The notes beneath the pieces are model-generated. The model worked only from the letters and a program-made list of their open reading frames with translations, had not been told where the DNA came from and searched no databases. From an uncultured Bacteroidia bacterium (GTDB lineage: Bacteria; Bacteroidota; Bacteroidia; Bacteroidales; UBA932), in assembly GCA_902785575.1 (NCBI GenBank), contig CACZZF010000008.1, positions 1 through 64,000 of the forward strand: a stretch of DNA of 64,000 nucleotides. The letters are read 5' to 3'. Shown here in pieces: positions 40,271 through 61,620 of the stretch (positions are counted from its first letter, which is position 1; each line of letters starts with the position of its first letter). The translations under genes and the position numbers were made by a program.

Positions 40271-41407
40271 TTAATATATCAATCTTAGCCACAGTTCAAG
40301 AAACTTGTCCGTCATCAGGTAAGACCTCTTTGAGTCAATCATTTGATACGTCACATATTGGCTTTCCATTAAGCTGATCATCGCTTTCTGGACCGAACTG
40401 GAAGAAGGCAGAGAGTTCCGTTTAATGAAACCGCCTGATGTGGGCTGACTTACGGTTCCCTCCTTGGCTATCGCGACAAGCACCTGCTTCTGGATCGTTG
40501 ACAATGATGCCATCTGCTCCCGGTAACCATGCTCGCCTTCCCCGAGAATCGCGTCAACAGTCTCAGACACCAGATCCTTCCCGATCAACCGAGCCTCTGT
40601 GTCCCGGGCAAAAAGATCATGGAAGACCTTATGCATGTAGAATGTATAGCCATCGAACAAATCATAACAATAGGACACTGCGTCCGGATCTATTTCCCGA
40701 CCCGACTCAGCAAAACATCCGATGACGAAACCAACGTACTTTTCCTTAGGGATCCTATCAAGGAACAAAGGCTGCGCGGAGTTGTAGAAAGGCTTGGAAT
40801 AAGATGAGAACATCTGCTCAAGGATATGCCTGTCGCTCCCGGAGAAAATGAAATGACAATTATTCATTTTCTGGATATGTGTTCTCAAAAGCGCCTCGAT
40901 ATTCTTCTCAGGGAAACGCGCTATCTGCTGGAACTCATCAATCGCGAAGAGACAAGGCTTGTCGGCTGCCTCGAGGTAGTCAAATATTTCTTCCAGGGTC
41001 AATTCCGGAGTCGTGATGTCGCCAAGTTGTAGATTGATCCTGGGATTCCCCGACACGGGATCAAGACTGAAGGCTGCTGTTATGGATTTGACAGTGCCCA
41101 GAAAGCGACTCAATGCCCTTTTTCCCTTTGGGACCAGCCTCTGATAGATCTCTTTACCCAAGAAAAAAACCATCTCACGCAAAGATGTGGCGGAATAGAT
41201 ATCCACATAGAAGGTGTAGTAATTATCCTTTATCTCATCTTGGTCGAATACGTGACGGATAATTTGCGTCTTGCCCATCTTCCTTGCGGAGGTCAGCAGG
41301 ACATTCCCTTGATTCTCAAGGAGCGAAGTGATGGTATTTGTCTCTTTCTCCCTGTCGCAGAAATATTTCCCGGGAATAATCCCTGTCAGATAAAATGGAT
41401 TGATCAT
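40271..41407 (-). CDS. AAA ATPase with C-terminal winged helix, first gene of operon B
   Basis: 378 residues, cytoplasmic. SARKMGKTQII (about 40-50) is Walker A, CLFAIDEFQQI (near 180) Walker B and FIFSGSDRH (near 205) sensor 1, as in the archaeal-type ATPase family (PF01637-like). The last ~90 residues form a winged-helix-like segment (LSTIQKQVLVAIAKEGTVSQ, then SSVQKAMISLMES). Its paralogue at 49307 heads the other operon. A promoter overlapped by a long inverted repeat lies just upstream. Position and domains suggest a regulator of the glycan operon; alternatively it is a cargo ATPase of a kind scattered in Bacteroidota. Function not established. Confidence 0.8.
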   Translation of the reverse strand: MINPFYLTGIIPGKYFCDREKETNTITSLLENQGNVLLTSARKMGKTQIIRHVFDQDEIKDNYYTFYVDIYSATSLREMVFFLGKEIYQRLVPKGKRALSRFLGTVKSITAAFSLDPVSGNPRINLQLGDITTPELTLEEIFDYLEAADKPCLFAIDEFQQIARFPEKNIEALLRTHIQKMNNCHFIFSGSDRHILEQMFSSYSKPFYNSAQPLFLDRIPKEKYVGFVIGCFAESGREIDPDAVSYCYDLFDGYTFYMHKVFHDLFARDTEARLIGKDLVSETVDAILGEGEHGYREQMASLSTIQKQVLVAIAKEGTVSQPTSGGFIKRNSLPSSSSVQKAMISLMESQYVTYQMIDSKRSYLMTDKFLELWLRLIY

Positions 41408-46407: not shown

Positions 46408-49287
46408 TCAATGATTAATATTCGTTTCAGGGATATTCTCGAACTTATCAGAGGAGGGGGCCTTCCAGGCCCAACCAAGGACTTGGCCCTCATAGTCCTC
46501 CAAGTAAACTAAGCGGAAGGAATGTGGACCTTTTCGCAGGGCGACCTGTCCGGTGGCGGTGTAGTCAGAATGGGAACCATCATTGTTAACGGCAAGGCGG
46601 CCGTCAATTTCAAGGATGCTTCCGTCATCGCTTCTGAGGGCGAACTCCCAAAGCCCATCCTCAAGAACATCAATATATCCTGTGAACACATAGCCGAAAT
46701 GATCAGCGTCAGGGGCTCCGGCGATTGACGGCGCGGGCATGGTCCCCTTGGCAACGACCGGCGAGGCAAGCACATCAGCGGCTTTTTTAAACTCGCCGAG
46801 ATGGTAGGTGTAGCGGCATCCTGGATTGGTGGAAGAGACTTTCTTCGCTGGAATATATTCAATCGGGAAAGCATGTACGATCATTTTTGGACTAGGCTCG
46901 AAACCATCTTTGAAAGCCCTTGCCACCAAGTAGACATCCTGGTTGATACGAATTGGTTTCTCATATAAGTCAGAGACAATCGACATGTCCTCACTGTCAA
47001 ATGAATAACGGATCTGGGCGCCTTCGGTCCGGGAACGGAGTTCGGCTATGAATTCCTTGTCGAAAAAGCAAGGATTCCCTACCAGATACGGAGTGGAGAC
47101 TACCTTCCCTTCCGACAATGAATATGGGGCCTTGAGACCATCCCTGTCGTGACAAGGCTCCTTGCAGAGTTTGAAGGACAGCTCTCCGCCAGCCACCAGC
47201 TGGTCGTAAGTCACGTACTGCGCATCAATCGGCACGCCGTTCAGTGACACTTCCCTGATGTAAGAATACTCCGGATGGTCAGCGCTGATTGTCAACGAGT
47301 TCCCATTCCCAAAGGTAACCGTGGCTTTCGGAAATACCGGAGCAGAGAAGACGAACTCTCCCGTGCCCGGGCAAAGTGGATAGAAACCGAGTGCGGCAAA
47401 CACATACCAAGCGCTCATCTGACCGCAATCCTCGTTTCCGCAAAGCCCGTCCGGTCCGGCAGAGTACAGATTATCAACTATTTCCCTTACATAACGCTGT
47501 GTGGAGGAAGGATCTCCAAGAGCCGTGTATAACCAAGCGGTGGCGTGGCTTGGCTCATTGCCGTGGGCATATTTCCCGATACGCCCTGTCACGAACCACT
47601 CGGCGTGGTCATCAAGACTCTCGTAACCCTCAGAGAACAATGAATCCAGGGATGCCTTGGCGGCCTCCTCGCCTCCCAACATGGCGGCGAAGCCGGCCAC
47701 ATCATGTATCATAAAATGACGATACTGCCAAGCGGTGGCCTCAGTGTAGTCTCGGGAGGATTCCCTTCCTGTCCCATCAGGAGTAAATGGAGCCCTCCAG
47801 TTGCCATCGGAATCCTTTCCACGGAAGAATCCCGTGGAAGTGTCCAGTATATTCCTGTATCTGAGGGCCCTGGCGTCATATTCAGCGGCTATGTCTTTGT
47901 GCCCGAGCGACTCCGCCATTCGGGCTATGCACCAGTCGTCGTAGGCATATTCAAGAGTCATCGAGACTGACTGGGGGGTGAAGTCGCAAGGGATATAGCC
48001 ATATTCATTGTACCAATCCGTGGCAGGATATGAATTCGAAGAGGCGATCATCGCTTTCAGGGCTTTCTCACCGTCGAAGCCCCTTATTCCACGCAACCAA
48101 GCATCAGCGATTACCGATACCGCATGGTAGCCTATCATGCAGTCCACCTCGTCTCCCCAAAGCGGCCACAAAGGCAACTGGCCATTCAGATCGTACATAT
48201 CCAACATACTGAATACCATTCCGTTAACAAGATCCGGCTCCAGTAGGGCCATAAGAGGATTCCATGAACGGAAAGTGTCCCATAAGGACAGAGGGAAATA
48301 GAATCCCATTCCATCAGGAGCTTTCTTGACCACCCCAAGATGGTTTTTGTAACAGCCGTCAAGGTCGGCCATCTGGTTAGGAACGATAAGGCTGTGGTAA
48401 AGGGAGGTATAGAAAACCTCGCGGCGTTCCTTGCTGCCTCCTTCCACGGCGACTTTGCCAAGACTTGCATTCCAAGCGGCCTCAGAGGCTTTCAGCACGC
48501 TGTCAAAATCAGCCTGCGGAGCCTCCGCAAGACGGTTATTCTCAGCGCCTTCCGCATCGACAGAGGAAAGGCCGACACTGATTGTGAGTTGCTTTGTGGT
48601 CTCAGGAAAAGTGAGAAGGTAACGGTCGTGTCCATCCGTGGCGCAGTCAGTGAACGGGACGGAAAAGAGCGCGGAGAAATACACCCAACGATCAGGAGCC
48701 CAGCCGGTGACATGACGTCCGCCAACTATACGGTTATCCGAGACTGCCTGCAAGGTCATACCGTCAGCTTTCGCATAAGCTAGAGCGTGTGCCATATCCA
48801 CAAGAATCCTCCTCTCCCCTTTCCCGGTGAAAGTGTAGCGGTGACAGCCGGTGTGTGGCAAGGCTGTCATCTCGGCCACGATACCGAGCGAAGGGAATTT
48901 GACCTGGTAATATCCGGCGCTCGCCTTCTCGTCTTTATGGGAGAAAGGAAGCGGCGGGACGGCAAAACCGTCCTGATTCTGAGGAACTTCCCCAATAACC
49001 GGCACGAAGAGGAAGTCTCCGAGATCTCCTTGGCCGGTGCCGCTTAGGTGGGTGTGAGAGAATCCAAGAATAAGGCTGTCTTTATCATGATAGCCAGCCA
49101 CTCCCCCGTCCACAGTGTCAGGTCCCAGCTGGACGAGACCGAACGGCGCAGTAGCGGCTGGGCTGGTGTGGCCGTCCAAGGCTGTCCCAATGAAAGGGTT
49201 GACCTCTCCAGAAAGAGTCTGGGAACCTCCGCAGGCAACCAATATCAAACCAAGAAACAGGAATACAAGAAAACGGTTCAGCTTCAT
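46408..49287 (-). CDS. GH92 alpha-mannosidase with chitobiase-like and PA14-like C-terminal domains
   Basis: 959 residues from the ATG at 49287 (MKLNRFLVFLFLGLILVACG, a lipoprotein leader); an ATG 15 bp earlier is less likely. GH92 motifs: HTSPAATAPFGLVQLGPDT, FSHTHLSGTGQGDLGD, WDTFRSWNPL, and GNEDCGQMSAWYVFAALG. Residues about 735-805 are a chitobiase-like domain (QIRYSFDSEDMS; ARAFKDGFEPSP). The C-terminus is the PA14-like module (DHFGYVFTGYIDV, SDDGSILEIDG, NDGSH, YLEDYEGQ). It differs from the sister GH92 throughout, so it is an old paralogue with perhaps different linkage preference. It follows the ATPase gene by 19 bp. Confidence 0.92.
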   Translation of the reverse strand: MKLNRFLVFLFLGLILVACGGSQTLSGEVNPFIGTALDGHTSPAATAPFGLVQLGPDTVDGGVAGYHDKDSLILGFSHTHLSGTGQGDLGDFLFVPVIGEVPQNQDGFAVPPLPFSHKDEKASAGYYQVKFPSLGIVAEMTALPHTGCHRYTFTGKGERRILVDMAHALAYAKADGMTLQAVSDNRIVGGRHVTGWAPDRWVYFSALFSVPFTDCATDGHDRYLLTFPETTKQLTISVGLSSVDAEGAENNRLAEAPQADFDSVLKASEAAWNASLGKVAVEGGSKERREVFYTSLYHSLIVPNQMADLDGCYKNHLGVVKKAPDGMGFYFPLSLWDTFRSWNPLMALLEPDLVNGMVFSMLDMYDLNGQLPLWPLWGDEVDCMIGYHAVSVIADAWLRGIRGFDGEKALKAMIASSNSYPATDWYNEYGYIPCDFTPQSVSMTLEYAYDDWCIARMAESLGHKDIAAEYDARALRYRNILDTSTGFFRGKDSDGNWRAPFTPDGTGRESSRDYTEATAWQYRHFMIHDVAGFAAMLGGEEAAKASLDSLFSEGYESLDDHAEWFVTGRIGKYAHGNEPSHATAWLYTALGDPSSTQRYVREIVDNLYSAGPDGLCGNEDCGQMSAWYVFAALGFYPLCPGTGEFVFSAPVFPKATVTFGNGNSLTISADHPEYSYIREVSLNGVPIDAQYVTYDQLVAGGELSFKLCKEPCHDRDGLKAPYSLSEGKVVSTPYLVGNPCFFDKEFIAELRSRTEGAQIRYSFDSEDMSIVSDLYEKPIRINQDVYLVARAFKDGFEPSPKMIVHAFPIEYIPAKKVSSTNPGCRYTYHLGEFKKAADVLASPVVAKGTMPAPSIAGAPDADHFGYVFTGYIDVLEDGLWEFALRSDDGSILEIDGRLAVNNDGSHSDYTATGQVALRKGPHSFRLVYLEDYEGQVLGWAWKAPSSDKFENIPETNINH

Positions 49288-49306
49288 AACAATTTCCATC
49301 ACACTA

Positions 49307-50389
49307 TCATATAGAATAATACTCCTTCAAAATCCACTGTTTGAAAACAGGGTCCTGAATATCGACAATAGACCCAGACACTTCAATCAGATCTCTCTTA
49401 ATCAAAGCGTTTTTCATGATCCGGATATTTCCGCTTGTTCCAAGCCTATATCTTGAGAGAGTTTCTACCGAGGAAAAATTTCTTACCCCGTCACATATCG
49501 CGCAAAGGAAACTCCTCTGCTTTTCCGTCAGTGAATCCATCAGATTCACGAACTGCAAATTCAAAGAATCCAGCATTGACTGAAATGCGGATTGGATGAT
49601 ATCCTCTGTACACTTTCTGGGAGTCCTAAGCCAAGTGTACTGCGCCAGCTGCTGAACATAATACGGATGATTATCCACAATATCAGCCAACTTCCCTGCC
49701 AGCTCTGGCGAAATTGCCTTTCCTGTCTCAGAAAAACGCCGCATAATATACTCTTGCCAATCTTGATTGTCGATCTTAGGCAAAAACATCATATCGCAAA
49801 AGCGATAGAATGGTTTTCCATATTCACCGAATATATTCAGCATCATATGTTTCTTGCTGCCGTATAAAATATATGCGACATCGGTCTGCTCTTGCCAGTG
49901 ATTACGAAGTATCTTTTGGAAACGGGAAGACTGGTCAAACTCACCAATTTGCTGGAACTCATCAATACAGACTATCACCTTCTTTTTACGCTTTTTGGCA
50001 ATCAGCTGTGGAAGGTTAAGAACATCCTCACCAACAGAAGCGTCTCGCCAATCCACACCTAAAGACAATTCATATTGCCCGGCGGGACCTGAGATACTCA
50101 GTTTTGAAGTGGATATCTCTTCTACAGTACGTTTCGCGAATAGTTCATAAAACTCCTGTGGCGTCTCACACTTAAAAGCATTCATTCTGACAAATAAGAG
50201 TTTGCTATTCGCCTCAGATGCCAGCTTGATCACTTTGTTGACCAGGGAAGATTTTCCCCACCGACGCGGAGAAATAATAGTCGTATTGGTTTGAGAGAGA
50301 AAATTAGCCAGTAATTTGGAAGACTCTTGCGTCCTGTCAGTAAAATCTCGGTCGGAAACGATCTTACCGTAAATGAAAGGGATTTCCAT
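49307..50389 (-). CDS. AAA ATPase with C-terminal winged helix, first gene of operon A
   Basis: 360 residues, no signal peptide. ISPRRWGKSSLVNK (about 39-52) is Walker A, KVIVCIDEFQQIGEF (near 138) Walker B, and YILYGSKKHMM (near 172) sensor 1. The C-terminal ~85 residues look like a winged helix (LTEKQRSFLCAICDGVRNFS, then GNIRIMKNALIKRDLIEVSG). It is a clear but distant paralogue of the ATPase at 40271. It has its own promoter (50406-50437) overlapped by a 9-bp-arm inverted repeat and is followed after 19 bp by GH92. A regulatory role is inferred from position; family members are often of unknown function. Confidence 0.8.
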   Translation of the reverse strand: MEIPFIYGKIVSDRDFTDRTQESSKLLANFLSQTNTTIISPRRWGKSSLVNKVIKLASEANSKLLFVRMNAFKCETPQEFYELFAKRTVEEISTSKLSISGPAGQYELSLGVDWRDASVGEDVLNLPQLIAKKRKKKVIVCIDEFQQIGEFDQSSRFQKILRNHWQEQTDVAYILYGSKKHMMLNIFGEYGKPFYRFCDMMFLPKIDNQDWQEYIMRRFSETGKAISPELAGKLADIVDNHPYYVQQLAQYTWLRTPRKCTEDIIQSAFQSMLDSLNLQFVNLMDSLTEKQRSFLCAICDGVRNFSSVETLSRYRLGTSGNIRIMKNALIKRDLIEVSGSIVDIQDPVFKQWILKEYYSI

Positions 50390-50446: not shown

Positions 50447-50475
50447 AAATTATCTCATGCATAAACGAAAACAAA

Positions 50476-50502
50476 GCGGGACGGCTTCGGAAGCCGTCCC
50501 GC
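50476..50502 (-). terminator. Intrinsic terminator after the decoy ORF and recombinase
   Basis: Minus strand: GCGGGACGGCTTC pairs perfectly with GAAGCCGTCCCGC, followed by TTTGTTTT. It would stop minus-strand transcripts from the recombinase gene and the 21-codon ORF before they reach the ATPase-led operon. Confidence 0.85.
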
Positions 50503-50510
50503 CTATCATT

Positions 50511-50545: not shown

Positions 50546-50611
50546 TTACTGAGCCTGGTAGCAACCGACGTTGATCTTAGCAACAACGCAGAATAGCTTC
50601 TTGGAAAACAT
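50546..50611 (-). CDS. 21-codon ORF duplicating the start of susC (decoy or remnant)
   Basis: ATG at 50611, stop TAA at 50546-50548. The first 11 residues (MFSKKLFCVVA) are identical to SusC at 51807, then the frame diverges (KINVGCYQAQ) and stops. DNA identity with the susC start is 36 of 37 bp, in inverted orientation. It is followed by an interspersed repeat and a strong terminator. If the segment between the two copies inverts, the susC promoter would read into this ORF and terminate. It may be a decoy start, a leader peptide gene or the remnant of a deleted susC. Translation is unproven. Confidence 0.55.
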   Translation of the reverse strand: MFSKKLFCVVAKINVGCYQAQ

Positions 50612-50616
50612 TTTTA
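50580..50616 (-). repeat. Left copy of 37-bp inverted repeat (inversion half-site)
   Basis: Matches 51802-51838 in opposite orientation at 36 of 37 positions, 31 consecutive. The repeat runs from 5 bp before the ATG to codon 11. Weaker similarity (ACCAATTA) extends upstream to 50629. The recombinase gene lies between the copies. Confidence 0.8.
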
Positions 50617-50670
50617 TAAAATAATTGGTATAATAAAAATAATCCAAGAAACTAATCTCTTATAAATCAA

Positions 50671-51591
50671 TCAGATATTACGGATCATCCGTTCGACGAC
50701 TTTTCTTTTTTGGTTCATGTCCGGATGGACATAAATATTCAGAGTCGTGGAGACATCGGAATGGCCGAGAATGGAACTTAATGTCTTGAAGTCGCACTGG
50801 CTCTCGATGCATCTGGTGGCGAAGGTGTGGCGGAGGCTGTGGACCTTGCGTACAGGCATTCCCAACCTCCGGCATATTCTTTTGAAATTATTCCTGAAAT
50901 TCTGTGGATCTGCCGGGAAATCATTGCCAGTCAATAAGTAAGGGTCTCCTTCCCCCTTGAGGCAAACTTTCTCTATCGAATGGGCGAGCCTTTTCGCTAC
51001 AGGCACGTCCCTCCAGGAGTCCGCTGTTTTCGGAGGGCCGATGGCCAGAACCGATTTCTTGGGAATCTGGTTCACCAAATATATTCGGTGAACCGCCCTG
51101 CGTACATGTATGATTTGCTCCTCCGTATCGAAGTCGCTCCACCGCAGCGCGCAAACCTCGCCGATCCTGAGTCCACAATATACGCAAATCAAAAGCCCCA
51201 CATTATATGGAGTAGGATGCTCGTGCAGCCACGCCAGCAGATTCTTCTCTTCCCGGAGTTGGAGCACTTGGGGTTCGGTTCTTCTCCGACGTGTTGGCAT
51301 TCTGAGTCGATAGGCCTTGGGCTCCATCCATTCCTCATCCTCGCAAAAGCGGATGATCATTTTGAGGACGAGGATGATAGCCTTGACTGAATTAACACTC
51401 AAGCCTTCTTGGAACTTGTTGTCAATCAATGCTTGGAAAGACTCCGGAGTCACATCATTCAAACGTCGGAACCGTGGAAGAAGGTGCGCTCGGATAATCA
51501 ATGAATAGGCGGCAAGGCTTGTGTCTTTGATAAAACCCGCCTTGCTTGCTTCCCATCGTAAGCAAGCGTCTTTGAAACTTGTAACATTCAT
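50671..51591 (-). CDS. Tyrosine recombinase (site-specific integrase/invertase)
   Basis: 306 residues from the ATG at 51591, preceded by an A-rich leader; a longer in-frame extension to 51687 lacks family-like sequence. The N-terminal ~95 residues are the core-binding SAM-like domain. The catalytic set is complete: R142 (GLRIGEV), K188 (PPKTADSW), H251 and R254 (HSLRH), H277 (LGHSD) and Tyr287 (LNIYVH). It lies between two inverted copies of the susC start, as do the Tsr-type invertases that switch SusC/SusD expression in Bacteroides. No other mobile-element genes are nearby, so inversion of the adjacent DNA is the likely job. Confidence 0.9.
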   Translation of the reverse strand: MNVTSFKDACLRWEASKAGFIKDTSLAAYSLIIRAHLLPRFRRLNDVTPESFQALIDNKFQEGLSVNSVKAIILVLKMIIRFCEDEEWMEPKAYRLRMPTRRRRTEPQVLQLREEKNLLAWLHEHPTPYNVGLLICVYCGLRIGEVCALRWSDFDTEEQIIHVRRAVHRIYLVNQIPKKSVLAIGPPKTADSWRDVPVAKRLAHSIEKVCLKGEGDPYLLTGNDFPADPQNFRNNFKRICRRLGMPVRKVHSLRHTFATRCIESQCDFKTLSSILGHSDVSTTLNIYVHPDMNQKRKVVERMIRNI

Positions 51592-51708
51592 TTTTTTTAT
51601 AATTAGGTTTGTATGTATAAGGTTTGTTGTGTTCAGTCTCAATATAATGTTTGCGGGATTTGCGTCCTCTAATACGCAAAATTTCATCTTCCTAAAAAAC
51701 CCTTTTTA

Positions 51709-51716
51709 TATTTTTG
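51709..51716 (+). promoter_or_regulatory. Candidate -7 element of the susC operon promoter
   Basis: TATTTTTG fits TAnnTTTG and is 90 bp upstream of the susC ATG. No convincing -33 TTTG is present at 19-21 nt, so the promoter may need an activator or be weak. It lies inside the segment bounded by the inverted repeats, so inversion would turn it away from susC. Confidence 0.4.
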
Positions 51717-51723
51717 CTAGCGA

Positions 51724-51745
51724 GTATACCGACATGTCGGCATAC
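51724..51745. repeat. Palindrome in the susC leader
   Basis: CCGACATGTCGG is a perfect 12-bp palindrome, extended to 22 bp by GTAT and ATAC flanks with one mismatched pair. It begins 8 bp after the candidate -7 element, near the expected start site. It could be an operator, an RNA hairpin in the leader or a recombinase-binding site. No second copy was seen. Confidence 0.6.
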
Positions 51746-51801
51746 TACACATATTAATAATTTTTGAAGACACTATTATTCACCAAACCAATTAATTAGT
51801 T

Positions 51802-51838
51802 TAAAAATGTTTTCCAAGAAGCTATTCTGCGTGGTTGC
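51802..51838 (+). repeat. Right copy of 37-bp inverted repeat (inversion half-site)
   Basis: Spans TAAAAATG of the susC start through codon 11 and matches 50580-50616 in the opposite orientation with one mismatch. Together they bound about 1.2 kb that contains the recombinase gene and the susC promoter region. Confidence 0.8.
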
Positions 51839-54800
51839 CATGCTGATCGGCATGGCAGCTAGCTTTGGCGCTTACGCCCAAAGCCTGACAGTACGCGGAA
51901 CCGTCAAGGACGCCCAGGGTCCCGTCGTGGGAGCCGTGGTGCTCAGTGGCGGAGCCAATGCTGTCACGGATGTCAATGGTAACTACTCAATTACCGTACC
52001 ATCGAACGCTGTCCTGGAAGTTTCCTGCCTTGGTTACGCCACTCAAAATGTGAACGTTAATGGCAGGTCTGTCATCGACATAATCCTTAAGGAAGATGTC
52101 GAGATGCTCCAGGAGGCCGTCGCCCTCGGTTACGGTGCCCAGACAAAGAAGAAGGACCTGTCCGCTTCCGTGGGTATCGTCAGCAACCCTGAGAAACTCG
52201 CCGGACGTCCTGTCACTTCGACGACCGGTATGCTCCAGGGCCAGATCCCTGGTGTGGTCGTGTCCTACTCCAACGGTTCGCCTACCAGCGGCCCTGGCAT
52301 TCTCATCCGTGGACAAGGCTCCCGTAACGGAGATGGTGTCCTCTGGGTTGTTGATGGTGTCCCTGGTGGCCCTATCACCTCAATGAATGATATCGAGAGC
52401 ATCGTCGTCCTGAAGGACGCGGCCTCCGCGGCTATCTACGGAGCCTCCTCAGGAGCTGGCGGTGTTATCATCGTCACCACCAAGAAGGCCAGCAACGGTA
52501 TCCATGTCGAGTATGACCTCGTCACCGGTATCCGCCACGCCAGCAACCTCCCCGAGTGCCTCACCGCCGAGGAAGAGATCCAGATGAGGACCATTGCCTC
52601 CAAGAATGCGGGCATTAACCTTGACACAGGTTGGGATCCCGCCGTCAACCCCTGGATCGCCACCACCCGTACCGACTGGATGGACGAGATCTTCCGCGAC
52701 GCCCTCTACCAGCGTCACACCGCCACCCTCAACTATGGTACTGACGCTCTCAAGAGCCGTCTCACCTTCACCTTCAGCGACAACCCCGGCGTCCTCGTCG
52801 GTACGTTCTCGAGAAGCATTGGTGTCCGTTACAACGGCCAGTACCAGATGAACAAGTGGATCAAGATCACTGAGAACATCCACTTCTCCGACGGCAAGAG
52901 CCGCGGCACCGACACTGGCTCCAGCCACACCGGAACCATCCTCTCAGCCCTCTACATGCCGCCGTCCGCTGAGGCCTACGCGACAGCCGGGCCTTACGCC
53001 GGCTCTTTTGGAGGTACCACCACCGAGGATCCCGCCTACGCCGCCCAGTACGGCAGCAACTTTGCCGGTCTGCATGGTGATGCTGTGAACCCTCTGCGTC
53101 TCCTCCTCGCCGACACTCAGTACGGCCACGGAATCAGCTTCTGGTCAACCACCGGCCTTGAGATCGCCAACATCGTGAAGGGACTCAAATTCGTCGACCA
53201 GTTCTCTTATAATATTGGTCAGGGCATCTCTAAGAGTTTCAACCCGAAGCGTCCTGAGATTGGTAAACCCAGCCTCACCAACTCCTTGAATGAGAGCGCC
53301 TCACGTAGCGACAACTGGCGCAACGAGGCCACCCTCACCTATGACCGCACCTTCGGCAAGCACACTGTTGGAGCCCTCGGAGCTGTCACTCTCAACCGCA
53401 GCTGGGGAAGGGACTTCAGCGCAAGCGCCTCCTCCTTCGACATCGAGAACGAGTCCATGCAGTACATGGCCTTCGCCGGCAGCTATGGTATCCCTACCGA
53501 CCACTACAGCGGACCTGACGCCAACATCGCGTTCGTCGCCCGTGGTTCCTACAGCTTCGACGACCGTTACTTCCTCACCGCCTCATGGCGTCGTGACTAT
53601 GCCGGCCGTCTGCCTCTTGGCCACAACTACGGTGACTTCCCCGCCGTCACAGGCGCTTGGAAGATCTCCAGCGAGCCTTTCTTCCCGAAAAACGACAACA
53701 TCAACCTTGTGAAGGTCAGGGCCTCTTGGGGCCGCGTCGGTAACCTCGGTTCCATCGGTGCGAACTACAAGTCCCCGTCCCTCAGCCAGATGGGAGACAA
53801 CACTGACAACAGGATGGCTGGCCGTACCGGTTACGGAAAGGGTGGCATCATGAGAGGTGTCACCTGGTCACTGACCACCGCCTTCAACCAGGAACTGACC
53901 TGGGAGACTTCGGAGCAGGCTGACCTCGGTCTCGATATCGACCTCTTCAAGGATCGTCTGTCGATGTCCCTCGACCTTTACAATAAGAAGACCTTCAACC
54001 TTATCCAGTCCCAGACCATGGATTGGCCGACCTACATGGGTATCAACCCTCGCCAGATCAACCTCGGTGAGATCAACAACCGTGGTATCGAGTTCGTCGC
54101 CACATGGAAGGACAAGATCGGCAAGGACTTCAGCTACTATATGACCGGCAACTTCGCCTACAACCGCAACCGCGTCATCAACACCGGTGTGTTCGATTCC
54201 GACGGTAACTCAGCTCCTTGGGTCGGTGGTGGCGGATACGGTCTTGAAACCACCGCTATCTACCGCAGTGAGGTAGGCCAGCCTATCAACTCCTTCTATA
54301 TGATTCCTTACGAGGGCATATTCCAGAGCATGGAGGACATCTATGACCACCAGAAGGACGGCAAGCTCATCCAGCCTGGTGCCCGCCCGGGCGACCTCAA
54401 GTTCACCGACGTGAATGGGGATGGCAAGATCAGCACCGAGGACCGTGTTTATCTTGGAAACCCGACTCCGAAGTACACCTTCGCCCTTTCCGGCGGATTC
54501 ACTTGGAAGAATCTCAATGTTGACCTCATGCTTCAGGGCGTGGCCGGCAACAAGATCGCCTACATGGCCAAGCAGCTCATCCTCGCCGATGTCGAGGGTA
54601 ACTTCAGCCGCGCCAAAGGCATTCTTGACGCCTGGAGCCCTGAGAACCGCGACTCCACCATCCCGATCCTCTCCAGGAACGACCCGAACTCCAACCTCGC
54701 CACCCCTTCAGGATGGTATCTCGAGGATGGTAGCTACCTCCGCGTCAAGAACTTGACTGTCGGTTACGACATCACCAAGCTCATGCGCCGTCTGCCTCAC

Positions 54801-54959
54801 TTCGCCGAGAGGAACTCTTCTTGCAACGTTTACTTCTCCGGTGAGAACCTCTTCACTTTCACCAAGTATTCCGGAATGGATCCTGAGGTCGGCGGTTACG
54901 ACACCCTGACCTACCCGGTCCACAAGATTTTCGCCTTCGGTGTGAAACTCAACTACTAA
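51807..54959 (+). CDS. SusC/RagA-type TonB-dependent outer-membrane transporter
   Basis: 1050 residues with a signal peptide ending AYAQ. Residues about 28-105 are the carboxypeptidase-regulatory-like domain (VRGTVKDAQGPVVGAVV; VTDVNGNYSI). About 115-225 is the plug (GMLQGQIPGVVVSYSNG; ILIRGQGS; VLWVVDGVPG; AAIYGASSGAGGVIIVTTKK), followed by the 22-strand barrel ending in FAFGVKLNY. No secretin/TonB short N-terminal domain is present, so it is not wired to an anti-sigma factor. It imports oligosaccharides with the adjacent SusD. The start codon lies in an inverted repeat, so expression is probably phase variable. Confidence 0.95.
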   Translation: MFSKKLFCVVAMLIGMAASFGAYAQSLTVRGTVKDAQGPVVGAVVLSGGANAVTDVNGNYSITVPSNAVLEVSCLGYATQNVNVNGRSVIDIILKEDVEMLQEAVALGYGAQTKKKDLSASVGIVSNPEKLAGRPVTSTTGMLQGQIPGVVVSYSNGSPTSGPGILIRGQGSRNGDGVLWVVDGVPGGPITSMNDIESIVVLKDAASAAIYGASSGAGGVIIVTTKKASNGIHVEYDLVTGIRHASNLPECLTAEEEIQMRTIASKNAGINLDTGWDPAVNPWIATTRTDWMDEIFRDALYQRHTATLNYGTDALKSRLTFTFSDNPGVLVGTFSRSIGVRYNGQYQMNKWIKITENIHFSDGKSRGTDTGSSHTGTILSALYMPPSAEAYATAGPYAGSFGGTTTEDPAYAAQYGSNFAGLHGDAVNPLRLLLADTQYGHGISFWSTTGLEIANIVKGLKFVDQFSYNIGQGISKSFNPKRPEIGKPSLTNSLNESASRSDNWRNEATLTYDRTFGKHTVGALGAVTLNRSWGRDFSASASSFDIENESMQYMAFAGSYGIPTDHYSGPDANIAFVARGSYSFDDRYFLTASWRRDYAGRLPLGHNYGDFPAVTGAWKISSEPFFPKNDNINLVKVRASWGRVGNLGSIGANYKSPSLSQMGDNTDNRMAGRTGYGKGGIMRGVTWSLTTAFNQELTWETSEQADLGLDIDLFKDRLSMSLDLYNKKTFNLIQSQTMDWPTYMGINPRQINLGEINNRGIEFVATWKDKIGKDFSYYMTGNFAYNRNRVINTGVFDSDGNSAPWVGGGGYGLETTAIYRSEVGQPINSFYMIPYEGIFQSMEDIYDHQKDGKLIQPGARPGDLKFTDVNGDGKISTEDRVYLGNPTPKYTFALSGGFTWKNLNVDLMLQGVAGNKIAYMAKQLILADVEGNFSRAKGILDAWSPENRDSTIPILSRNDPNSNLATPSGWYLEDGSYLRVKNLTVGYDITKLMRRLPHFAERNSSCNVYFSGENLFTFTKYSGMDPEVGGYDTLTYPVHKIFAFGVKLNY

Positions 54960-54979: not shown

Positions 54980-56683
54980 ATGAAAAAGTACATTTATATA
55001 GCTTTTGCCGCTCTCTGCGCCCTCACTTTCGCCTCTTGCGATAATTTCTTGGATTACACTTCCCAGGGAACTATCGCCCAGGACAACTTCTTCCTTTCCG
55101 ACGAACAGGCCAATGGTGCTATTGAGAACTGCTACTACGGCCTCTTCGAGAGGGACGGAATGTTCAGCCGTGAGATCTACTGGGAGCAGGCTTGCGCTAA
55201 CGATATGGTATGGGGCAAGACCCGTGGTTTCCCGAGCCTCGCCACTCTGAGCTACACCGGCAACGAGTCCTGTATTCTTGACACTTGGAACAGGATCTAC
55301 AACCGTTACGGCATTCCCAAGGCCAACTGGGTGGTCAATTCTCTTCTCACCAAACAGGCCAAGGAAGGCCTCACTCCTGTTGAGACCAGGGTACTCGGTG
55401 AGGGTTACTTTCTCCGCGCGCAGTATCACCTGCTCGCCGCCTACCGCTACGGCACCAAGGAGCTCGGTGTTCCCTTCGTGGCATACGAGGATGTCGAGGG
55501 TGGTTACAACTACACCATCCCCCCGCAGCTCCCTTCTGTGACCGACAACTACGCCTACATCGTCTCCGACCTGAAGAAGGCTGAGGAGATCCTCCCTCGC
55601 GTTGAGGAGTACTCCACGGCTGACCTCGGCCGCGCCTGCAAGCAGTCCGCCGCCGCCCTTATGGCCAAGGTTTACGCTTACTGGGCCATGTGGGACAGCT
55701 CACAGTGGAGCAATGTCATCGACTGTGTGAACCGTCTTGAGAACCAATATGGCCGCGGGCTGGTGGACAATTTCGCCGACCTCTTCTCCCCGGATTTCAG
55801 CAAGGGCTTCTACAACAAGGAGTACTGCTGGGGTATTCCCGGAACAGGTGGTGCTGACTACACCGGTAACGGTGGTGTTGAGCTTACCGGTGTCATGCTC
55901 GAGGACAAGGGCTGGGGCAAGTTCAACGGCTGGGGCCAGATCCACCCTTCCTATGACCTCTACGAAGAAATGGCGAAGGATAATGAGGACACCAACGGTG
56001 ACGGCGTCTCTGACTATCAGGACACCAAGAACGAGCGTCTTGCCAAGACCATCCTTGAGTACAACGACGAATTCACTTATTTCGGTGAGAAGATGCGCTA
56101 CTACTCTCCGGTCAACATTGAGGTTGGTTTCCAGTGCAACAAGTACATGGAGGCATTCGAGCCCGCCAACTGCGTTGGCACGACCGTTCTCGACAATGGT
56201 AACTGGCCTGTCACTCAGGTTATGTGGCCTATCGTCCGCTTCGCTGACTGCTTGCTTCTCCGCGCCGAGGCTAACCTCGCCCTGGGCAATGCCGCAGCCG
56301 CCGCGACCGACATCAACAAGATCCGCGTCCGCAGTCACCTTAAGCCTCTCGATGGTCCTGCCACTTGGACTGACCTTTATCACGAGCGCCGCTGCGAGCT
56401 CGCTTTCGAGTTCTCCGCCGACCACGCTTTCGACTGCAAGAGGTGGGCTATATCCGGTGCATCCGAGATCAAGGCTCTTGCTCTCAATGAGCTGAACTCA
56501 CATCCGAGGGTCCGCCACTATGAGGATAGGATGAATCCCGAGTCCCCCTACACTGTCGGCCCTTACGAGGACTATCAGTCTCCTGTTAAAGTATGGAGAG
56601 ACCAGTGTCTCACCTTCCCTTATCCTACTGATGAGATCACCAAGGCCAACGGAGCTCTCCAGAACCCTCCGTCCTGGCGATAG
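54980..56683 (+). CDS. SusD/RagB-type glycan-binding lipoprotein
   Basis: 567 residues. The leader ends TFASC. Helical TPR-like SusD organisation is clear: NNFFLSDEQ-like start (DNFFLSDEQANGAIENCYYG), EGYFLRAQYHLLAAYRYG (about 140), QSAAALMAKVYAYWAMWD (about 218), and FADCLLLRAEANLALGNAAAA with HERRCELAFEFSADH near the end. It caps the SusC barrel and binds the oligosaccharide. It is 20 bp after susC, with an AGGAGG Shine-Dalgarno at 54965-54970, which is unusual in this phylum and suggests high translation. Confidence 0.95.
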   Translation: MKKYIYIAFAALCALTFASCDNFLDYTSQGTIAQDNFFLSDEQANGAIENCYYGLFERDGMFSREIYWEQACANDMVWGKTRGFPSLATLSYTGNESCILDTWNRIYNRYGIPKANWVVNSLLTKQAKEGLTPVETRVLGEGYFLRAQYHLLAAYRYGTKELGVPFVAYEDVEGGYNYTIPPQLPSVTDNYAYIVSDLKKAEEILPRVEEYSTADLGRACKQSAAALMAKVYAYWAMWDSSQWSNVIDCVNRLENQYGRGLVDNFADLFSPDFSKGFYNKEYCWGIPGTGGADYTGNGGVELTGVMLEDKGWGKFNGWGQIHPSYDLYEEMAKDNEDTNGDGVSDYQDTKNERLAKTILEYNDEFTYFGEKMRYYSPVNIEVGFQCNKYMEAFEPANCVGTTVLDNGNWPVTQVMWPIVRFADCLLLRAEANLALGNAAAAATDINKIRVRSHLKPLDGPATWTDLYHERRCELAFEFSADHAFDCKRWAISGASEIKALALNELNSHPRVRHYEDRMNPESPYTVGPYEDYQSPVKVWRDQCLTFPYPTDEITKANGALQNPPSWR

Positions 56684-56710: not shown

Positions 56711-58522
56711 ATGAAAAAGATATTTTACGCGATAATGGGGGCCGCCGCCCTGCTTCTTCTCGCCGGTTGCGAGGAGAAAGGTGAGGTCTTTTACCAGAAT
56801 CCTTACAGGATCATCGTGGACTATCTGCCCTCGACTTTCACTATCAGTGGCATCTCCGGCAATGTGACACCCGATGAGAACTACGATTGGATCACTTCCA
56901 ACGGCAACGGCAGTTTCACCGTCAGGCGTAACACCAGCGGCCTTATCCGCCGCGCTGAGTTCACAGTCGCCGGTAGCAGTGACAAGGCTATCGTCAACCA
57001 GAGGGCCCACAGCCTTGATGCCACGGTTACTTCCTCGCTTGCCAGCCAGGGACTTGGTTCAGCCAATATCGATGTCACCTTGAACACCAAGAACCTCGAC
57101 GACTATGCCGCTTGGGGACTTATCTTTGGTACTGCTAATGACCGTTCCGCGGGAAAGGTCGTTCCGATGAGCGGTGCTCCCGTCGCCGGTATCAATAAGG
57201 GTGAGATCACTGGTCTTGCCGAAGGTACTGACTACTTCGTCTGGTCTTATGTCGAGTCCACCGAGGGTGACAGGATCTATTCCAATCCTCTTGGTCTCGT
57301 CCCTCCCGTGTATGTTAAGGCTGGTGAGGATCTCCAGGCCGCCATCGACGCTGCCAAGGAGTTCCAGGAAATCCGTGTCGCCGGTGGCGCCGTGTTTAAC
57401 GGAACCATCGTGTTCGACGACAAGAACAAGAACAAGAGCATCTCCGGTGGTTGGAACGCTGACTTCACCGAGCAGAGCTGGGACAACCTGACCGTCATAG
57501 ACGGTGGTGGTGTCAACCGCGGTATCTACTGCGGCGAGAGCCCTATCACCGACATGCCTCTGCAGGGTTCTGTCGAGATCTCCTACTTCGAGATCCGCAA
57601 CTGTCTATGCTTGTCTGGCCATGGTAGCGCTATCCGTGTGTCCGGTGGCCCTGTCACTGTCCACCACTGCTACATACACCACAATGAGGCAGACCGCGGT
57701 ACCATCAACACTCGTGAGGACGATCAGTCTTCAGACATCACTGTCTACGACTGCGTCATCGTGAACAACGTCGCCAACGGCCATGCCGCCGGTGTCTGCG
57801 TTGAGGATGGCCAGAGCCGCGCCAACCCGACTCATGCGAAGTTCTACGGAAACATCATCGCCAACAACCGTTCCATCAAGAATGATGGTTATGCCGGTTC
57901 AGTGTATTTCTACCAGAGCGTTGACGTCCAGTTTGTCAACAACACTGTCGTCAACAACTTCAATTACTACGAGGACAATGGCAACTGGTGGGGTAACTTC
58001 TACCTCCGCTACAATACCAACGCCGTGCTTGCCAACAACCTCATTCTTCGCCCTTGGGGTGCGAAGAGGGGAGAGGCCGCATTCTTGCAGGATAAGCCTA
58101 TCGATGGTGGCGGAGCCCGTCCCACTGCCTACAACAACGTCATCGAGGGAGAGCAGATGCACAACGAAGGTGGCTGGACGAAGTCGGGTGAGATTAGGAT
58201 GCCTAGCAACTTCACGATCACCGAGGTTCTGAAGAACCCTGACATCGAGATGGTTGCCCAGGCTGATCTTCAGAACAAGGCTGCCACATTCAAGTACAAC
58301 AGCCTGACCGATTTCCTTGGTGAGAATTATATGTCTCAGGGTAAGGCTATCGGTGCCGGAACACTTGAGACTCTCTCATACAATTCCTACGACACAGCCA
58401 ACCTCGGTGCCAACTACTCAGCTGACATCAAGGCCTTCCTTGAGAAGATCGGAACCGACATCAACGGTAACCCGTTCATTAAGGGCGGCAAGACTGACAT
58501 CGGTGCTATCCAGTCCAAGTAA
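56711..58522 (+). CDS. Beta-helix surface lipoprotein at the SusE/F position
   Basis: 603 residues. The leader ends LLLAGC. Residues about 25-110 look like a small BACON-like beta domain (NVTPDENYDWITSNGNGSF). About 115-205 is a fibronectin-like domain (GLAEGTDYFVWSYVES). About 210-603 is a right-handed parallel beta-helix with repeated short strands (ISYFEIRNC; VHHCYIHHNEADRGT; VYDCVIVNN; FYGNIIANN; FVNNTVVNN; LANNLILRPWG). Third gene of the susCD operon, 28 bp after susD, so most likely a surface glycan-binding protein; a pectate-lyase-like catalytic role cannot be excluded. A terminator follows. Confidence 0.8.
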   Translation: MKKIFYAIMGAAALLLLAGCEEKGEVFYQNPYRIIVDYLPSTFTISGISGNVTPDENYDWITSNGNGSFTVRRNTSGLIRRAEFTVAGSSDKAIVNQRAHSLDATVTSSLASQGLGSANIDVTLNTKNLDDYAAWGLIFGTANDRSAGKVVPMSGAPVAGINKGEITGLAEGTDYFVWSYVESTEGDRIYSNPLGLVPPVYVKAGEDLQAAIDAAKEFQEIRVAGGAVFNGTIVFDDKNKNKSISGGWNADFTEQSWDNLTVIDGGGVNRGIYCGESPITDMPLQGSVEISYFEIRNCLCLSGHGSAIRVSGGPVTVHHCYIHHNEADRGTINTREDDQSSDITVYDCVIVNNVANGHAAGVCVEDGQSRANPTHAKFYGNIIANNRSIKNDGYAGSVYFYQSVDVQFVNNTVVNNFNYYEDNGNWWGNFYLRYNTNAVLANNLILRPWGAKRGEAAFLQDKPIDGGGARPTAYNNVIEGEQMHNEGGWTKSGEIRMPSNFTITEVLKNPDIEMVAQADLQNKAATFKYNSLTDFLGENYMSQGKAIGAGTLETLSYNSYDTANLGANYSADIKAFLEKIGTDINGNPFIKGGKTDIGAIQSK

Positions 58523-58690: not shown

Positions 58691-59899
58691 ATGAAACGAC
58701 TTTTACTAATATCGATCTTTTCTCTGCTGCTTTGTTCTTGCGGAGATCGTGATCCATATAAGATGACATTTGTCAGTATGTCCTCTCTTGAGATCAAGGA
58801 TGACTTCTGGACTCCCTATTTCCTTATTCACAAAGACATAACCCTCCCGCTTGCGGTCAGCTGGACTGAGAGCCACTTTGACTCTCCGATGGTCCCCAAG
58901 GCAATCGAGGGCATCGCATATTCCCTACAGTTCGAGAAGGACACGGAACTGGCGGTTAAGCGTAGCTCATGGGTGACGAGATTGAAAAACGAGGCCGGCC
59001 AGCGGCAGGCTGTGGCGGACACTTGCGAGGTCAGCAGTGCCGTCACAAAGGTTTTCAACGATGCTGACCTGCTTAGAATCAGCGGCGACGGGAATTATGC
59101 GGATAATCTGGAGCAAACTCTTTATAATGAGGTGCTTCCGGCCATTTCCTTGAAAGGTGATCGTTTTTTTTCAAAATCTCCTTTGTCGTCCTCAGGAAAC
59201 TTCTCCCGCCTGACTTGGGAAGAGACTCAAGGCAGCGCCATGGATCTGTTCCGTATCATTCCATATTTGGGAAATATCGTCTATGGCACTTCCAAAGAAG
59301 CCCTGTGGGTAAACCTCTACATGTCCGGCAATGCGAAAGTCAAATTTGCCGGTGAAGATATAATCGTTCATCAGACAACTACCTATCCTTGGGATGGCTA
59401 TGTGGCTCTGCAACTGGAGCTTCCGAAGCCCCTCAAAGCAGAGATCCGTCTCCGGATACCATCGTGGTGCGAAGATTTCACTTTAAGTGTAAATGGCAGA
59501 TCTGACGAGAGTGTTAAGGTTGATGCCGGATATGCGGTACTTAGTCGCAAATGGCAGGATGGCGACAACATCGAACTGGTGCTTGACATGCCTGTGAAGA
59601 CTGTCGATGCCACTTATTTTGGAAAGAAAGAGGAAGGGAAACGGGCTGTTCGGCGCGGCCCTATAGTCTATTGCATAGAAGAAAAGGATAATCCCTTCGG
59701 ATTTGACACTCTGTACTTGTCAAAGAATATGGAATTCGGCCTGGAAAGGTTGCCCAAAGCCGAGTGGTGTGGCCATAGCTTGATGAGAATAACGGCAAAG
59801 ACCCCTGATGCAGGGGTCCTAACCTTTATACCATATTTCGCTTGGGGCAATCGTGGCCCCGGAAAGATGGAAGTATTCGTTCCTTATCAAGGCAATTAA
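58691..59899 (+). CDS. Shortened GH127-like protein lacking the catalytic cysteine motif
   Basis: 402 residues with a lipoprotein leader (LLLCSC); GH127 beta-L-arabinofuranosidases are usually over 600. The start ([12 protein letters not shown]) and the region [20 protein letters not shown], then [30 protein letters not shown] and LWVNLYMSG align in order with GH127, but roughly 200-250 residues of the early helical barrel are missing. Where the family has the CCPPN motif with the nucleophilic and zinc-binding cysteines, this protein has ETQGSAMD. It is therefore probably not an active GH127 enzyme. The C-terminal beta domains look intact. It has its own promoter. It may be a binding protein or a decaying gene that is still open. 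Confidence 0.75.
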
Positions 59900-61620
59900 T
59901 ACTCCTTGACGACCTTGAGAAGCCTGTCGGGATAGTTGGAGATGATGGCGTCGACTCCGGCGTCGATAAGACGTCGCATCTCATCCGGATCGTCCACGGT
60001 CCAAGTGTTCACCTTCATTCCCTTGGCGTGAGCCTTGTCAACAAGAGCCTTGTCCACATTCTCATGAGGGGCGCTAAGCCACTGGGGAGTGAAGTTCAGA
60101 AGACTCATATACTGGTCGAAATCAGTCTCCCACTCCTCCACAAGGAAAGCGAGTGTGTGGCCGGGATATTTCTCATTGATGTAATTGAGAGCCCTTTCGT
60201 CAAAGCACTGAATCATAAGACGGTCACCGAGACCAAGAGAATCCAACATGGCGACGCAAAGGTCTGTATATTCATGATATTCAGGCCAATCCACGCCTTC
60301 AACCCCACCATCGTAATCGGGATCGCTCTTGATTTCGATGTCGTAATGCATGGGATAATGGCCATTCTCCTTCGTCCAGGCCTCAACCGCGGAGATCACC
60401 TCTGAGGCGATGGGCTTGCAAAGGGGCATGCAATGCTTCTCGGGCCACCCGGGATTGTATTTGACTCCCACATCCCATTTTGCTATCTCGCTGTAAGGAA
60501 GGTGATAGAGATAGGTCTTGGGATCACTGCCCAAAACGGGCTTTCCGTCCGGACGAGTAGAGTAACGAGGGTGGAAGTATTTATCGTGGGAGAGGACTAC
60601 CTTCTTGTCTTTAGTGACACAAAGGTCCATCTCAAGAGTGTTGACACCCAACTTCACGGAATTGAGCATCGCGGGAAGAGACTCCTCAGGATAAAGCCCC
60701 ATGCCACCCCTATGAGCCTCGACATCAATAACATACTTGGGAGCCTCGGCTACTGGCTCAGCTTTTTTCTGCTCAGGAGCGGCGCCGTAATGAAGCGTGG
60801 CCTTCACAGGATAATGATCGGAGACAAATGGAGCGCCGGGATAAGCCTGCCTGATAACCTCAAATTTATCACAACCTGAGAAGCCGGAATAAAAAACATA
60901 GTCGATAGGCTTGTCGCTTGTGACCTTGCCCCAATCATGCCATGTGACCTCATTATCGGTCACGGGAGCGGTCTGGCGGGCATCAGCCATCAGTTCGCGA
61001 AGCGCCTCGAGGCATGGATCATCCGGATAGACGTTCATGTCTCCAGTGAGGATCATAGGATAACCTTCCGGATTCATCGCGCCGATACGCTCGACTAAGA
61101 GCAGCAGGCCATTGCGACGGGCCTCCTTGCCAACATGGTCAAGATGAGTATTGACAAAATAGAAATTACGGTCGGCCACCTTGTCGTGGAGCAAAGTCCA
61201 AGTGGCCGTGCGGCGGCAAGCGGCATCCCATCCCAAAGACGGCTCGAAAGGAGTCTCGGAGAGCCAGTAAGTCCCCCACTCTTTCAACTCTATACGCTCA
61301 GTGTCATAAAAGACGGACATATGCTCGCCATCATGGACACCGTCCTCCCGGCCGACCCCGACACATTTGTAACCAGGGCAGTGCTCAACGAAGTAATCCA
61401 ATTGGAAATCAAGAGCTTCCTGCACACCGAAAACAGCGGGTTTTTGGTCTAGGATCATAGCGCAAGCGGCGTCACGGCGGTTCTCCCAGGCATTGTCTCC
61501 GTCTTTGGCGGTGCCGTAACGGACGTTGAAGGACATGACAGGGAGAGTCTCAGACGCCTTGTCATTCTTGCATGATAAAGCCATAAGAGGCAATAACGCC
61601 AGAAGGAATATTCGTTTCAT
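59896..61620 (-). CDS. Endonuclease/exonuclease/phosphatase - glycerophosphodiesterase fusion lipoprotein
   Basis: 574 residues with a lipoprotein leader (MALSC). Residues 25-278 are an EEP-fold hydrolase (FGVQEAL near 64; [14 protein letters not shown] 156-169; LTGDMN 192-197; SDHYPV 267-272). A Pro/Ala/Glu/Lys linker (279-296) leads to a GDPD domain (297-574): EAHRGG with HR at 303-304, [15 protein letters not shown], and [11 protein letters not shown] near the end. GDPD cleaves glycerol-phosphodiesters, and the EEP half could act on the resulting phosphate or on another phosphodiester. It converges with the GH127-like gene, overlapping by four bases, and follows the ROK kinase across a repeat array. 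Confidence 0.88.

Follow-up and report, generated by a model that had tools for sequence, protein, structure and literature searches.

In Salmonella, the recombinase gene hin and an outward-directed promoter are located inside the invertible segment. Hin is a serine recombinase, the single promoter is turned on and off for fljBA, and a paired target operon on the opposite side is not known. A description of Hin/hix is given in PMC11868660. In Campylobacter fetus, homologous surface-protein genes (sapA) in opposite orientation and with conserved 5' ends flank a promoter segment, and inversion of this segment picks the gene to be expressed. This inversion is largely RecA-dependent, and the segment is not known to contain a dedicated recombinase gene. 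For Bacteroides fragilis, inverted repeats over the start codons of susC/ragA genes are known, where an invertible promoter serves alternative outer-membrane protein pairs (PMC5729914). In the same species, Tsr0667 drives inversions of the shufflon type, which concern three SusC/SusD clusters and nine further regions (PMC4747536). Promoter inversion at surface genes, among them susC/susD and capsule loci, is found throughout the order Bacteroidales (PMC10939037, PMC12632263).

In the window, the entire stretch of 64,000 nt analysed here, a tyrosine recombinase gene is flanked by inverted copies of a susC start (Table 1). Comparison with related genomes makes it quite likely that the window contains the remaining half of a two-way selector between susC/susD operons. 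In such a selector, the gene for the recombinase and one outward promoter would form a cassette with a susC-susD-(beta-helix) operon diverging on either side, and the 5' leaders and first codons of the two operons would constitute near-identical inverted repeats. Crossover between the two leaders, presumably catalyzed by the cassette's own recombinase, would flip the cassette, so that its one promoter leaves the first operon and serves the second. The silent arm would often be lost afterwards, and in the window the operon on the side of a GH92-like gene has been deleted.

This layout shares features with each of the known systems. As in the SusC/SusD shufflons of B. fragilis (region EE, Tsr0667), a tyrosine recombinase is combined with repeats at start codons and a promoter for alternative susC/susD pairs. 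There, however, a master invertase acts on many regions and large gene segments move past the promoter, whereas here the recombinase gene together with the promoter would be the moving cassette, each locus has one full set of sites, and loss of the second operon is frequent. Other invertible promoters of Bacteroidales differ from the window in that the segment is usually short, contains only a promoter and switches one operon on or off. With Salmonella hin the locus has in common that recombinase gene and promoter, the latter recognized by consensus only, lie within the flanked segment and would travel together. The initial annotation had called a decoy start combined with a whole recombinase gene inside the segment an unusual layout; for the position of the recombinase gene, hin is a precedent. 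Whereas hin encodes a serine recombinase acting on hix sites, the enzyme here is a tyrosine recombinase, and gene starts are part of the repeats. The sapA locus of C. fetus is similar in placing a promoter segment between two divergent homologous genes, but other proteins in another phylum are concerned. Inversion of SusC/SusD genes in Bacteroides is known as a kind, and layout and history are new; the papers searched yielded no description of such a recombinase-promoter selector, which is not proof of absence.

Table 1. Positions of features at the recombinase locus of the window
Feature	Position	Strand	Remarks
Outer anchors, left (GH92 side)	46408..50389	-	AAA ATPase 49307-50389 and GH92-like 46408-49302
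Terminator-like hairpin	50474..50504	-	14-bp stem, downstream of scar
Scar ORF, 21 codons	50546..50611	-	MFSKKLFCVVAKINVGCYQAQ*; SusC and beta-helix pieces fused in frame
Left inverted repeat	50569..50616	-	second (deleted) susC start; 36/37 over 50580-50616
Degraded leader-block counterpart	50612..50634	-	ATTATACCAATTATTTTATAAAA; upstream of scar ORF
Tyrosine recombinase, intact	50671..51687	-	Phage_integrase PF00589, E 1e-25
-7 element, predicted susC promoter	51709..51716	+	TATTTTTG (TAnnTTTG, Bacteroidales-type); inside cassette
Imperfect palindrome, 24 nt	51723..51746	+	AGTATACCGACATGTCGGCATACT; directly after -7 box
Leader block, candidate recombination site	51782..51798	+	ACCAAACCAATTAATTA; upstream of susC ATG
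Right inverted repeat	51802..51849	+	end of susC 5' UTR and first codons
susC (SusC/RagA TonB-linked receptor)	51807..54959	+	surviving PDE-side arm
susD	54980..56683	+	
Beta-helix protein, type 1	56711..58522	+	third gene of surviving operon
GH127-like gene	58691..59899	+	most of catalytic model missing
Outer anchor, right (PDE side, phosphodiesterase-like)	59896..61620	-	

The inverted repeats overlap the susC start codon and show 88% identity over 48 nt. Within them, 36 of 37 nt match between 50580-50616 and 51802-51838, in accordance with the single mismatch originally noted; the chance of so long a match within 3.5 kb is negligible. The repeat is not common elsewhere, since its 23-nt core was found at these two sites and at no third one in the 3.05-Mb genome when up to three mismatches were allowed. 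A complete recombinase gene between the copies and susC/susD on the right, both annotated from the outset, were confirmed. The catalytic motifs of tyrosine recombinases (R...HxxR...H/Y) are kept, which places the enzyme in this family, and GLRIGEV, HSLRHTFATRC and LGHSDVSTTLNIY are found with minor variants in 18/18 aligned homologues. Judged from these homologues, Met33 at about 51591 is the probable true start. Between the window and its nearest relative, L090, dN/dS of the recombinase is about 0.06, both being without a full second arm. Purifying selection on the recombinase is thus strong despite the loss of that arm in both; its retention might reflect a recent arm loss, the presence of two-armed strains in the population, or a different role.

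A genus-wide search for recombinase homologues, to which locus L130 was added separately, defined the distribution of this arrangement. In all 19 examined loci with recombinases of about 49% identity or more, susC is divergently adjacent, while none of the examined loci at 43% identity or less has the recombinase beside susC. The 19 loci of this susC-associated group are found in 13 genomes of one genus and at two chromosomal sites. Locus 1, the site of the window, lies between a GH92-type cluster and the gene for the phosphodiesterase-like protein (PDE); locus 2 is located between DAHP synthase and lpxK-like genes and holds the second copy of this genome (C14). Outside the genus, no recombinase at about 49% identity or more was detected in 393 genomes of the order or 399 genomes of the family. 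A search of viral contigs gave no match to the recombinase, and its relatives in plasmid records were all below 60% identity, the best at about 37-39%.

The second arm is preserved to very different degrees in these loci. In the window, the second pair is represented by a scar, but in L097 and L098 complete susC-susD pairs are present on both sides of the recombinase, so that two alternative pairs are available to the promoter. The same holds for L130, although one susC matches in two pieces there. The contig ends within the second susC in L089 and L099, in L085, L086, L087 and L088 the second arm is decayed, and in the nearest relative of the window, whose recombinase is 98% identical, the left repeat copy is gone entirely. 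At locus 2, L100 (G422 C23, 10901-19901) contains two susC-susD pairs in tandem and in the same direction, the second of which resembles the silent arm of L097. Contigs ending within arms (G422, G212, G408, G073, G300) were considered as an assembly sign of inversion and not used, since repeats explain these ends equally well.

The 21-codon ORF on the left was first taken for a decoy start with a built-in terminator. The ORF and the hairpin behind it were confirmed, but the decoy reading was dropped once the tail of the ORF matched the end of a beta-helix gene. The head, 50579-50611, corresponds to SusC codons 1-11, and the tail, 50546-50578, consists of the last 10 codons and the stop codon of a beta-helix gene (KINVGCYQAQ*), which is the third gene of susC operons in these loci. 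In L082 (G408), the GH92-side operon is intact, and its final beta-helix protein has a C-terminus matching the scar tail (...GGKINAGCYQAQ, scar-type tail ...GKPRITGGKINAGCYQAQ). The intact type 1 beta-helix protein of the window ends differently (...GGKTDIGAIQSK), which indicates that, on its GH92 side, the window has lost another susC-susD-beta-helix operon. By these comparisons, the 21-codon ORF is the scar of a deletion that reaches from SusC codon 12 to ten codons short of the end of the beta-helix gene, and its size, estimated by comparison with L082, is about 6.6 kb. Similar fusions exist in relatives. L086 (G235) has a longer in-frame scar of 30 SusC codons and 83 beta-helix codons ending in ...GKPRVTNGKINAGCYQAQ*, an end that the tail of the window scar matches as well, and in L088 49 SusC codons are joined in frame to the end of SusD. 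The hairpin is situated where the lost operon would have ended and is therefore probably its terminator.

Toward the other end of the cassette, a TAnnTTTG element was detected 89-108 nt upstream of the susC start and inside the cassette in nine of ten locus-1 loci, and would be part of the susC promoter. A scan for sigma-70-type promoters gave nothing relevant; the Bacteroidales consensus differs from that type. The palindrome following the -7 box is partly kept in L090, L083 and L082 and could be an operator or a hairpin in the 5' UTR. At the end of the surviving operon, the GH127-like gene matches just positions 288-348 of a 376-position catalytic model, and the enzyme is therefore probably truncated.

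Just ahead of the susC start codon lies the leader block ACCAAACCAATTAATTA. All locus-1 relatives have it without change in their active arm, the block or close variants of it precede the second arm in L085-L089, and in two-armed relatives it is common to both arms. Since the arms of L086-L088 differ in their first codons and yet share the block, it is a better candidate for the crossover site than the coding repeat; with the second arms of L086-L088 themselves decayed, this is suggestive only. A genome-wide scan for further targets of the recombinase gave one exact leader-block site, and the remaining hits at 2-3 mismatches were not above the reversed control. On the scar side of the window, no leader-block site was detected at up to three mismatches.

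From these observations it is doubtful that the window copy still inverts. There is about an even chance that it is a locked remnant, in which the second arm and its site are gone, no flipping occurs and susC/susD is constitutively open to its promoter. The recombinase would then be kept for other reasons; it might, for example, serve exchange with strains that have two arms, or bind DNA at the divergent promoter. Such a remnant is favoured by the single full leader site of this genome and by the large number of one-armed relatives, all of which have an intact recombinase, but the 36/37 repeat persists and the leader block is only a candidate for the crossover site. By sequence, the window copy may thus be locked in the ON state.

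Alternatively, the cassette of the window could still be a live on/off switch inverting between the 37-bp repeats. A flip would turn the surviving susC/susD off, and the promoter would drive only the 21-codon scar peptide, followed by the terminator. The near-identity of the repeats, the intact recombinase under purifying selection and the terminator-like hairpin after the scar would suit this explanation, which we regard as possible but less than probable. At the scar, the leader block that both arms of two-armed relatives share is degraded, the closest relative does without the left copy, and the identity of the coding starts may reflect mere susC homology, the first eight susC codons being identical in most arms of the family. 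Of the inversion switch initially proposed, the segment bounded by inverted susC starts stood, and the comparison of genomes indicates that such segments have flipped in relatives; the ancestral design, however, would have been a two-way selector and not an on/off switch with a decoy.

Comparison of related genomes, which the initial annotation had recommended, revealed the recombinase in both orientations relative to the fixed outer genes at both sites. In the window, G422, G235 and G073, the locus-1 recombinase gene has its promoter end toward the PDE side, and in G185, G169, G408, G066, G300 and G212 toward the opposite side. The window, G185, G169 and G408 show both flanks, the remaining genomes a single one; several MAGs have contigs that stop before one of the outer flanks. 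At locus 2, the recombinase is directed toward lpxK in L097 and L049, and toward DAHP synthase in L098, L099, L100, L101, L046, L056 and L130. The recombinase tree, in which L130 is not included, implies at least two orientation changes at each locus, and L097 and L046, strongly supported sisters (100/98), have opposite orientations. Synonymous divergence of the recombinase broadly tracks that of the flanking genes, which argues for a change of orientation in place. Moreover, G408, the window and G235 share one beta-helix type on the GH92 side, although the promoter points to an intact arm in G408 and away from a scar in the other two, as expected if the cassette alone was flipped. The orientation differences are thus most simply read as flips of the recombinase-promoter cassette between two arms.

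Inversion of a whole recombinase-operon block, or horizontal replacement of operons, might instead be behind these differences. The susC-susD-beta-helix genes of the window have dS values of 0.05-0.5 to G185, G066 and G169, compared with mostly about 1-2.4 for flanking genes. For the beta-helix gene and its counterpart in G185 (L084, 5770-7578), 99% identity and a dS of 0.05 were obtained where the flanks are at about 1.5-2, which clearly points to an operon exchange in recent times. Some operon types are also found on differing sides among genomes (at locus 1 the type-1 operon in G185 and G169, at locus 2 types X and Y), and cassette flipping alone is therefore not sufficient for all rearrangements. 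By these comparisons, operons have been exchanged between species and between arms. As the explanation of the orientation differences, however, block inversion or replacement is unlikely, considering the two-armed loci and scars, which show that two operons existed, the constant GH92-side beta-helix type in G408, the window and G235, and the recombinase divergence following the flanks. Cassette flipping and these larger rearrangements may both be at work. Outside the operon, the AAA ATPase gene shows a dS of only 0.06-0.13 to G422 and G169, below that of its neighbours, which suggests a more recent transfer; a second ATPase-like gene is present at 40271-41407 in the window.

That an integrase was inserted by chance or as a mobile element beside susC with a duplicated target and has no switching role is very improbable. 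The enzyme is indeed integrase-like (N-terminal domain PF14659, 'Int protein' as best solved relative), but its association with susC is kept in 19 loci at two sites, it is inherited vertically with its flanks, leader and promoter are conserved, and no other cargo is present.

The two-way selector could be part of a longer history. It is conceivable, if rather unlikely, that the cassette is a docking port, with recombinase and promoter staying at the chromosomal site over long times while species exchange susC-susD-beta-helix operons of several types into either side of it; flipping would put a new operon to trial, and the one not used would then be deleted. If this were true, the locus would be a long-term selector and exchange point, more than a phase switch. 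Gut Bacteroidales take up glycans mainly through SusC/SusD pairs, which can also act as receptors for phages and as targets of immunity. A compact cassette choosing between two such pairs would extend inversion control to a large rumen-associated genus, in which successive stages of evolution are visible, beginning with two complete arms, passing through scars and ending with one arm. The window would be a degenerate member of this series and is mainly useful for explaining it.
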